In this document: in pieces, positions 2,794-5,194 of the stretch
Position numbering within the stretch: the first letter of the stretch is position 1
Layout: each line of letters begins with the position of its first letter
NCBI GenBank assembly: GCA_013215565.1
Contig: JABSQV010000004.1
Span: 204,917-268,916, forward strand
Source: Myxococcales bacterium
GTDB taxonomy: Bacteria > Myxococcota_A > UBA9160 > SZUA-336
Reading direction: 5' to 3'
Length of the DNA stretch: 64,000 nucleotides
The notes under the pieces: model-generated
Told to the model about the DNA's origin: nothing
What the model saw: only the letters and a program-made list of their open reading frames with translations
The model's database searches: none
Made by a program: the position numbers and the translations under genes

Positions 2794-3330
2794 GTGCGGG
2801 AAGTGACGCGCATCGAGGACATCGACTGGGAGCGCTGGACGCCGACCAGCCGCGCGACGCTGGTGTTCGTGATCTCGGGCGGACGCGTTCTCCTGATCCG
2901 GAAGAAACGCGGACTCGGTGAGGGAAAGATCACCGGGCCGGGCGGCCACATCGAGCCGGGCGAGAGTCCGGCTGAGGCCGCAGTGCGCGAACTGGAAGAG
3001 GAACTGGAGGTACGCGCGCTCGGCCTCGAGCCGTGCGGCGCGAACCTGGTTCAATTCCTGGACGGTCAGCGTCTGCAGTTCTACGTGTTCCGCGCTTCGG
3101 GCTGTGAAGGGACGCCCGTCGAAACCGACGAGGCGGTGCCGATCTGGACTCCGCTCGAGCGAATCCCGTACCACGAAACCTGGGAGGATGACCAGCTGTG
3201 GCTGCCGCTGGTTGTGAGCGGCACGCCCTTTCTGGGCCGCTTCGTGTTCGACGGCGATAGGATGCTGGATCAGCAGCTGGAGCAGGGAGCAGTCGCTCGC
3301 GCGGTGTGTAGAGAGGCGATGAAACCCTGA
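2794..3330 (+). CDS. NUDIX hydrolase, MutT/MTH1-like
   Basis: 178 residues from a GTG with GGGAGGG just upstream. The Nudix box is G-G-H-I-E-P-G-E ... R-E-L-E-E-E-L near residues 50-70. The surrounding K-K-R-G-L-G-E-G-K-I-T-G-P-G-G and W-E-D-D-Q-L-W-L-P resemble MTH1/8-oxo-dGTP diphosphatases (G-K-W-N-G-x-G-G-K and W-x-D-D). The final Gly of the box is Glu here. A nucleotide-pool sanitising role is likely but inferred. The gene ends about 230 bp before the convergent folP homologue. Confidence 0.8.
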   Translation: MREVTRIEDIDWERWTPTSRATLVFVISGGRVLLIRKKRGLGEGKITGPGGHIEPGESPAEAAVRELEEELEVRALGLEPCGANLVQFLDGQRLQFYVFRASGCEGTPVETDEAVPIWTPLERIPYHETWEDDQLWLPLVVSGTPFLGRFVFDGDRMLDQQLEQGAVARAVCREAMKP

Positions 3331-3559: not shown

Positions 3560-4438
3560 TCACCTCCGGTCGGCCGCGCCGGCTGCCGGCGGCGGCTCCG
3601 GTCGCAACGCTTCGACGACCGTGAGCGCATCGCGGAGCGCGCGCACCTCGTGGGTTCGGATCCAGTCGACCCCCCTCCAGGCGACGAGGCTCTCGGCCGC
3701 CAGGGTCGCGGCCCCAACCGTGGAAACGTCACGCCCGGCCAGACGCTGGAGAAAGGACTTCCGCGAGACGGAGACGAGCACCGGTAACCCGAGCTTCTGG
3801 CGCAGCGCGGGGATCGCGCGCAGAACTGCGAGCGAAGCCTCAGGCGCACGCCCGAGAAAGAAGCCCATCCCGGGGTCGACGACGATCCGCGCACGCGCGA
3901 TCCCGGCCGTGGCCAGTTCAGCCACGCGCTGCTCGAGGAAGCCGCACACCTCGGCCACGATCGTCTCGGGGTCGCTGGTACTTCGCAGCGCCTTCCCGCG
4001 CCGCTGGATCGAGTGCATCACGACCAGCTGGCAGTCCGACTGCGCGAGCCTGGGCCAGTGCTCGGGATCGGGAAAGCCCTGAATGTCGTTCAGCCAGGCG
4101 ACGCCGCGCTCGAGTCCGAAGCGTTGGGTTTCCGCGCGAAACGAGTCGATCGAAACCGGCACGCCCGCGGCCAGGAGCTGCTCGACCACCGGCCGGAGCC
4201 TCCGGATCTCCTCGTCGGGCTCGACCCGGGCAGCGTCGGGGTGGCTCGACGCGGGGCCGAGGTCGATCGCGTCCGCCCCCTCTGCAACCAGGCGCCGCGC
4301 GTGTTCGATCGCCTTTCCCGGGTCGAGGTAGCGCCCCCCGTCCGAGAAAGAATCCTCGGTGAGGTTCACGATTCCCATGATCCGCGTACGGGGCACCGGG
4401 TCGATCACGCAGACGTGCCGAATTGCGCGCTGCGCCAC
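3560..4438 (-). CDS. dihydropteroate synthase, Sul-type
   Basis: 292 residues from a GTG; the conserved part begins at Met21. The enzyme joins p-aminobenzoate to 6-hydroxymethyl-dihydropterin diphosphate in folate synthesis. The fold signatures are G-I-V-N-L-T-E-D-S-F-S-D-G-G (22-35), S-I-D-S-F (96-100), N-D-I-Q-G-F-P-D-P (117-125), M-H-S-I-Q-R (141-146), D-P-G-M-G-F-F-L-G (188-196) and S-V-S-R-K-S-F-L (223-230). Ordinary FolP has D-I-G-G-E-S-T-R-P-G and D-P-G-F-G-F-G-K at the second and fifth sites. This protein has D-L-G-P-A-S-S-H-P-D-A and the FFLG form, which I know from plasmid Sul1/Sul2. It lies 51 bp behind aat. Whether the cell has another FolP cannot be seen here. The start is uncertain within 20 residues. 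Confidence 0.9.
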   Translation of the reverse strand: MAQRAIRHVCVIDPVPRTRIMGIVNLTEDSFSDGGRYLDPGKAIEHARRLVAEGADAIDLGPASSHPDAARVEPDEEIRRLRPVVEQLLAAGVPVSIDSFRAETQRFGLERGVAWLNDIQGFPDPEHWPRLAQSDCQLVVMHSIQRRGKALRSTSDPETIVAEVCGFLEQRVAELATAGIARARIVVDPGMGFFLGRAPEASLAVLRAIPALRQKLGLPVLVSVSRKSFLQRLAGRDVSTVGAATLAAESLVAWRGVDWIRTHEVRALRDALTVVEALRPEPPPAAGAADRR

Positions 4439-4489: not shown

Positions 4490-5194
4490 CTATTTCACCG
4501 CTGCGCAGGCTTCGGAAAGGCGCCAGGGCCCACGGCGCGTCTCCCGCTGGAGCGAGGTCCGCAACAGCTTCAGGAACTTTCCACGCGCCATCTCGACCGC
4601 CCCCAGGCTCGCCAGATGGTCCGAGTACACCTGACAATCGATCAGGTCGAAGTTCCAGTCGACCAACTGGCTCACCAGCCGCACGAACGCGACCTTGGAG
4701 GCGTCGCGTTCAATCGTAAACATGGATTCTCCAAAGAAGCAGCCGCCCAGCGAGACCCCATACAGTCCGCCGACCAGCCGCTCGTCGAGCCACGCCTCGA
4801 CCGAATGTGCGACGCCGCGTTCGTGGAGATCCGCGTACGCGTCCGTCATCTCGGGTGAGATCCAGGTCCCGGTCTGATGCGGGCGCGGCATCGCCGCGCA
4901 TTGGAGGACCACTTCTCGAAAGGCCGTGTCGCAACGAATTTCGGGGAGCGGGTGGCGCAGCGTGCGCGCCATGCTTTTCGAAATCTTGAGTTCGCGCGGC
5001 CGGAGCACCATGCGCGGGTCCGGAGAGTGCCAGAGGATCGGCTGGCCCTCCGAATACCACGGGAAGATCCCGGCCGCGTACGCGGCGAGCAGCCGCTCTG
5101 CCTCGAGCCCGCCTCCGATGGCCAGCAGGCCGTCCGGCTCGGCCCGCTCGACGGCGGGGAAGACGTAGCTCGCGCCGAGTTCATAGACCGGCAT
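4490..5194 (-). CDS. aat: leucyl/phenylalanyl-tRNA-protein transferase
   Basis: 234 residues, the normal length of Aat. It transfers Leu or Phe from tRNA to N-terminal Arg/Lys of proteins, marking them for ClpAP in the N-degron pathway. Family signatures visible are G-L-L-A-I-G-G-G-L near residue 25, Y-A-A-G-I-F-P-W-Y, P-I-L-W-H-S-P-D-P-R-M-V-L, T-G-T-W-I-S-P-E-M and G-G-L-Y-G-V-S-L-G-G-C-F-F-G-E-S-M-F. The ATG start matches the family. It is the first gene of a two-gene minus-strand unit with the DHPS. Confidence 0.95.
   Translation of the reverse strand: MPVYELGASYVFPAVERAEPDGLLAIGGGLEAERLLAAYAAGIFPWYSEGQPILWHSPDPRMVLRPRELKISKSMARTLRHPLPEIRCDTAFREVVLQCAAMPRPHQTGTWISPEMTDAYADLHERGVAHSVEAWLDERLVGGLYGVSLGGCFFGESMFTIERDASKVAFVRLVSQLVDWNFDLIDCQVYSDHLASLGAVEMARGKFLKLLRTSLQRETRRGPWRLSEACAAVK

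Follow-up and report, generated by a model that had tools for sequence, protein, structure and literature searches.

Chromosomal dihydropteroate synthase (DHPS) genes carrying Sul motifs, termed folP*, were reported from Rhodobiaceae and Leptospiraceae in 2019 and described as the origin of sul1/2 and sul3; in E. coli, those of Parvibaculum and Leptospira gave sulfamethoxazole MICs of at least 512 mg/L (PMC6335563). Crystallography and mutagenesis of Sul1, Sul2 and Sul3 indicated that a loop Phe (residue 178, 179 and 177, respectively) would clash with sulfonamides. Replacing it with Gly lowered the sulfamethoxazole Ki 243-fold in Sul1 and 90-fold in Sul3, with pABA use unchanged; the adjacent Leu also contributes, and mutations of the Phe and Leu compromise Sul resistance (PMC10328974). 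In a literature search excluding subscription papers and preprints, we found no later paper that widens the range of Sul-motif FolP past Rhodobiaceae and Leptospiraceae.

Here we analysed a DHPS gene in a 64,000-nucleotide stretch of DNA, referred to as the window. Chromosomal Sul-type folP as such has been known since 2019 (PMC6335563), and the window gene adds a further lineage. It shares with the published copies its status as a chromosomal host DHPS gene, the two-residue insertion in the DPG loop, membership of the Sul-type clade and the lack of a mobile context. The published copies adjoin glmM/ftsH or pal/TPR genes, whereas the window gene adjoins aat and belongs to another lineage; Rhodobiaceae and Leptospiraceae reference sequences were not included by name in our comparison set. 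To the earlier work we add further lineages, an either-or pattern of Sul-type and ordinary FolP among the genomes of a single class, and naturally occurring substitutions of the resistance residue.

Sequence of the window DHPS

The folP reading frame, whose coordinates take in the stop codon, and the features discussed below are listed in table 1. Its start codon is uncertain, as the first approximately 17 residues are of low confidence in the structural model and the sequence ahead of the GTG has no obvious ribosome-binding site. The protein matches Pfam Pterin_bind (PF00809) with 224 bits against a cut-off of 25.5, and the NCBIfam DHPS equivalog TIGR01496 with 269.6 bits, above the curated cut-off of 162.6. 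The top NCBIfam model was Sul2, with 321 bits, but the curated cut-offs of the named Sul models were all missed (321 of 575 for Sul2, 289 of 475 for Sul3 and 270 of 600 for Sul1), so that routine annotation would call the protein a plain 'dihydropteroate synthase'. The model for Sul4 (NF033502), which shares the DHPS fold but lacks the two-residue insertion (PMC6335563), gave only 121 bits.

Table 1. Features of the folP locus in window coordinates.
Feature	Coordinates	Strand	Basis
Sul-type dihydropteroate synthase gene (folP)	3560..4438	-	ORF, 292 aa, GTG start (uncertain); Pterin_bind 2.3e-66; Sul2 the best NCBIfam model
DLGPASSHPDA, residues 59-69, at the place of D-x-G-G-E-S-T-R-P-G in ordinary FolP	4232..4264	-	ORF translation, alignment
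LNDIQGFPDP, residues 116-125	4064..4093	-	ORF translation, alignment
CQLVVMHSIQR, residues 136-146	4001..4033	-	ORF translation, alignment
DPG loop DPGMGFFLG, residues 188-196, two-residue insertion relative to ordinary FolP	3851..3877	-	alignment; short helix 192-194 in model
Phe193, equivalent to Sul2 Phe179, the sulfonamide-clashing residue in Sul	3860..3862	-	alignment to Sul2; function per PMC10328974
Leu195, equivalent to Sul2 Leu181 (Lys in ordinary DHPS), second resistance determinant in Sul	3854..3856	-	alignment; function per PMC10328974
aat, leucyl/phenylalanyl-tRNA-protein transferase, upstream, co-directional, 51 bp gap	4490..5194	-	Pfam Leu_Phe_trans 5e-74
NUDIX hydrolase, convergent neighbour	2794..3330	+	Pfam NUDIX 2e-17

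Among the named enzymes, the closest is the plasmid-borne Sul2 (PDB 7s2j/7s2k), at 58.5% protein identity in tblastn searches against plasmids and 57.2% in global alignment. Sul1 (51.5% and 49.8%) and Sul3 (51.0% and 50.6%; PDB 7s2i, 7s2l, 7s2m and 8scd for the two enzymes) have the same loop and are more distant. The window gene nevertheless differs from sul2 in being a chromosomal gene, the only copy found, that is about 40% diverged and falls below the NCBI Sul2 cut-off. The best sequence matches in the PDB were likewise Sul2, Sul3 and Sul1, at 262-299 bits, while the next DHPS reached 176 bits. In contrast, most ordinary FolP proteins of related genomes in the window's class are 33-44% identical to the window DHPS, and every copy whose loop was inspected has the motifs D[VIL]GGESTRPG and DPG[IL]GFGK.

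An earlier note, made from the letters of this DNA, had recognized four Sul signatures in the reading frame at 3560-4438, and all four are indeed present (DLGPASSHPDA, NDIQGFPDP, CQLVVMHSIQR and DPGMGFFLG). Its description of the enzyme as Sul-type is borne out by the identities and the best NCBIfam model, as well as by the loop insertion and the clade described below.

The DPG loop and predicted fold

The insertion proposed to mark the Sul loop was found in the alignment, which reads DPGMGFFLGRAPEAS in the window DHPS and, for example, DPGIGF--GKRVEDN in its class. Met191, Phe193 and Leu195 correspond to Met177, Phe179 and Leu181 of Sul2, and all three are kept.

Across 78 Sul-type sequences, Met177, Gly178 and Phe180 (Sul2 numbering) are invariant and Leu181 is replaced once, by Ile. 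The resistance Phe at position 179 is present in 71; the other seven sequences have Leu (five), Gln or His. In these seven (L012, L191, L204, L162, L182, L183 and L221) the remainder of the loop is intact. Separately, the FolP of a Patescibacteria MAG (L100:5992-6813) combines a loop that is longer by two residues, DPGMGAFISS, with DIGGESTGPGS at the other motif. Its long branch in the tree is on the side of the ordinary enzymes, and it could be an intermediate or a case of convergence.

An AlphaFold model of the window DHPS, built with 22 sequences, reached a mean pLDDT of 90.2 and a pTM of 0.87. Its best 13 structural matches in the PDB were all Sul enzymes, ahead of any ordinary DHPS, and the predicted fold superimposes with an rmsd of 1.0 Å on the Sul3 complex and 1.1 Å on the Sul2 complex. 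Residues 192-194 form a short helix in the model, which agrees with the change in helix 6 reported for Sul enzymes.

Copy number and genomic context

The genome comprises 3.8 Mb in 154 contigs and is 91.1% complete; folP lies on a contig of 287 kb. Pterin_bind gave two matches in this assembly, the window folP and a long open reading frame. We considered the latter as a second folP and rejected it, since it reads as a cobalamin-dependent methionine synthase (MetH). The search for a second folP, suggested in the earlier note, thus found none in the 91.1%-complete genome. As folK is present, on another contig, the folate pathway needs a DHPS.

The neighbourhood is a housekeeping one. Upstream of folP come aat and then genes for an AAA/TPR regulator and a LeuD-like protein with an aconitase-C domain. 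On the other side lie genes for NUDIX, DUF533-like, MaoC-like and ferredoxin proteins and, beyond them, for IMP cyclohydrolase-like, phosphodiesterase, aminotransferase, molybdopterin-binding, chorismate synthase and MutY-like proteins. No integrase, transposase or other mobile-element family was detected among the neighbour proteins scanned, which reached as far as about 18 kb downstream. GC3 of folP is 0.86, within the range of its neighbours (0.79-0.86). The normal chromosomal setting beside aat, with no integron, that had been read from the window was therefore confirmed among the genes scanned. Because folP is the sole DHPS gene found in the 91%-complete genome and sits among housekeeping genes, we take it to be a chromosomal folP doing its normal job.

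The arrangement itself is particular to this locus: aat, the NUDIX gene and the flanking genes accompany a Sul-type gene in none of the other loci compared. Contexts of Sul-type genes vary between genera, and in some genomes of family f4 an acyl-CoA-synthetase-like reading frame follows.

Phylogeny and relation to the mobile sul genes

We built the tree without the loop columns, so that the trait itself could not create the grouping. All 74 Sul-type sequences, the mobile Sul1-3 included, were grouped together by a branch supported at 100/99, while the ordinary FolP of the window's class formed a clade of its own (100/94). The window DHPS is thus placed in the Sul-type clade and outside the ordinary FolP of its class, the outcome on which the earlier note had made its reading depend.

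Within the Sul-type clade, most deep branches were without resolution and the bootstrap had not settled. The window sequence had no strongly supported partner, and the nearest rows were members of its own family. A single clade for all 21 class members was not rejected (p-AU 0.61); the tree constrained to it scored 9.3 log units above the free tree, so the free search was not optimal. Sul2 paired with the alphaproteobacterial L187 (65% protein identity) at 100/88. Sul3 joined a sequence from viral-labelled contigs (80% identity) at 100/100 and, with weaker support (87/90), sequences from Lewinella and spirochaetes. The suggestion that the window gene could be related to the source of the mobile genes holds loosely, in that both belong to the same Sul-type clade, but Sul2 is closer to Alphaproteobacteria and Sul3 groups elsewhere. 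Because Sul2 groups with alphaproteobacterial sequences, the window folP is not, as judged from the tree, the donor of the mobile sul genes.

The viral-labelled contigs deserve a separate comment. L116 and L117 (IMG/VR contigs 3300029305_005940 and 3300032167_004695), together with L230:387-1178 on the minus strand, encode a Sul3-like DHPS with 80% protein and 75% DNA identity to sul3. The protein exceeds the NCBI Sul3 cut-off (493.6 against 475). Its gene has a GC content of 33%, compared with about 52% for the contig stretch that carries it, and the contig opens with 127 bases that match an lnu(C) lincosamide-resistance gene at 96% identity. None of the chromosomal relatives in our comparison comes as close to sul3 as this DHPS, which has the appearance of a mobile sister of sul3; whether the contigs are truly viral is doubtful.

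Distribution of Sul-type and ordinary FolP

A Sul-type gene was found in 21 of 91 genomes of the window's class, the window's own counted: six genomes of its family, fourteen of family f4 and one of family f8. The other 20 proteins are 49-60% identical to the window DHPS (E of 2e-74 or better), and even the homologues of the same family are diverged, at 51-60%. Nearly all remaining genomes of the class carry ordinary FolP, with the loop DPG[IL]GFGK wherever it was inspected; elsewhere presence or absence was judged from score and identity. No genome with both types was found among the 91. The ordinary enzymes (e.g. L013 and L024) catalyse the same reaction and belong to the same Pfam family as the Sul-type DHPS, for which they are evidently interchangeable in these genomes, although they differ in identity, motifs, clade and the absence of the insertion.

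Outside the class, Sul-type genes occurred in two further genomes of the window's phylum, 24 of 385 Alphaproteobacteria, 5 of 294 Planctomycetota and, in the phylum to which a Leptospirales MAG belongs, at least 20 of 198 genomes. These are samples and not censuses, and many of the genomes are fragmented assemblies resembling metagenome bins. A scan of contigs from named genomes covered at least 80 loci, mostly filled by ordinary FolP. Among the matches listed there, one Leptospirales, one alphaproteobacterial and one Planctomycetota MAG had a Sul-type gene without a second DHPS, and two Bacteroidota had one together with an ordinary FolP. Actinobacillus minor and Sandarakinorhabdus carry acquired sul2/sul1 (100% identical) beside their own folP, unlike the window case. 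Sul-type FolP thus appears to replace ordinary FolP, rather than accompany it, in the window's class and a few Planctomycetota.

Three further observations concern other genomes. In Lewinella sp. W8 and a Bacteroidia MAG (L036/L037), a Sul-type DHPS with 59% identity to Sul3 and 34% GC is present in addition to an ordinary FolP and is a candidate acquired or accessory copy in Bacteroidota. In genus g26 of the window's class (L208-L214) and in G020, weak second matches were examined as possible ordinary FolP and rejected: they are a divergent DHPS-like paralogue beside the main FolP, with the motifs GVLNLSPESM and DPNLGIIHP and with AARKPERL instead of SRK. The DHPS model gives this paralogue 101 bits, short of the 162.6-bit cut-off. 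Finally, G010, a 95%-complete genome of the window's family, gave no DHPS match at E <= 0.001 with the window protein as query, which points either to sequence missing from the bin or to an organism that scavenges folate.

Discussion

We consider it very likely that the window folP is the organism's own and only DHPS gene, of the Sul type, which performs the normal reaction and renders its host insensitive to sulfonamides through the loop. The enzyme would convert pABA and 6-hydroxymethyl-dihydropterin pyrophosphate into 7,8-dihydropteroate, as any DHPS; residues conserved with Sul1-3 and the sole-copy status point to catalysis with pABA. Owing to the two extra residues of the DPG loop, Phe193 would lie at the end of the site that holds the pABA carboxylate, and Leu195 would stand where ordinary DHPS has lysine. 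pABA should still fit the site, while the sulfonyl group and substituents of sulfonamides would clash with Phe193, so that the host should be intrinsically sulfonamide-insensitive. For catalysis, drug exclusion and resistance alike, we infer from the published work on Sul1-3 and on two other chromosomal members. The natural resistant DHPS proposed in the earlier note is probable in the light of the loop, the clade and that work, and the host bacterium is probably naturally resistant to sulfa drugs.

A mobile sul gene recently acquired and carried for resistance beside a normal folP would also have a Sul-type sequence, a patchy distribution in the class and a gene context that differs between genomes, and genuine acquisitions exist in A. 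minor and Sandarakinorhabdus. However, the closest mobile gene is only 57-58% identical, no ordinary folP was found in the 91%-complete genome, the composition is that of the neighbours, no integrase or transposase family occurs among the scanned neighbours, and relatives in the family carry diverged homologues. Recent acquisition is largely refuted by these observations, and we regard it as very unlikely. We give even less credence to an ordinary FolP that came to a Sul-like loop by convergence. E. coli under sulfonamide selection did gain a Phe-Gly insertion at the same place (PMC10328974), but the Sul-type clade has full support in the tree made without the loop columns, and Sul signatures are also found in three other regions of the protein.

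What shaped the loop is a different matter. It may have been something other than sulfonamides, such as an altered affinity for pABA or a natural DHPS inhibitor, with sulfa insensitivity a side effect or partial; we hold this to be a serious possibility, if somewhat short of an even chance. The Sul-type lineage has a long history and a wide distribution, and sulfonamides are synthetic, a point also raised in PMC6335563, and the presence of Leu, Gln or His in 7 of 78 sequences indicates that the Phe is not under absolute constraint. Such an origin concerns the cause of the loop and overlaps, without conflict, with our reading of the window folP as a sulfonamide-insensitive sole DHPS; the window protein itself keeps the full Phe/Leu pair.

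On balance, we lean slightly towards Sul-type FolP being an old second housekeeping DHPS lineage, present at least in the window's phylum, Alphaproteobacteria, Spirochaetes and Planctomycetota, that has repeatedly swapped with ordinary FolP as the sole enzyme. If so, the route from Leptospiraceae to Rhodobiaceae (PMC6335563) would represent a single branch within a natural reservoir of far greater extent, and the Phe-less natural variants could show the order in which the loop changed and whether sulfonamide exclusion is its purpose. The seven such members offer a ready-made test set for which part of the loop discriminates and to what end. The chromosomal Sul-type reservoir is widened here from two reported families to several more lineages; such genes will escape resistance surveys, since they score below the NCBI Sul cut-offs and their annotation reads simply DHPS. 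These results support the view that, long before the drugs, resistance to a fully synthetic drug class was already present in environmental bacteria in the form of an ordinary metabolic enzyme.
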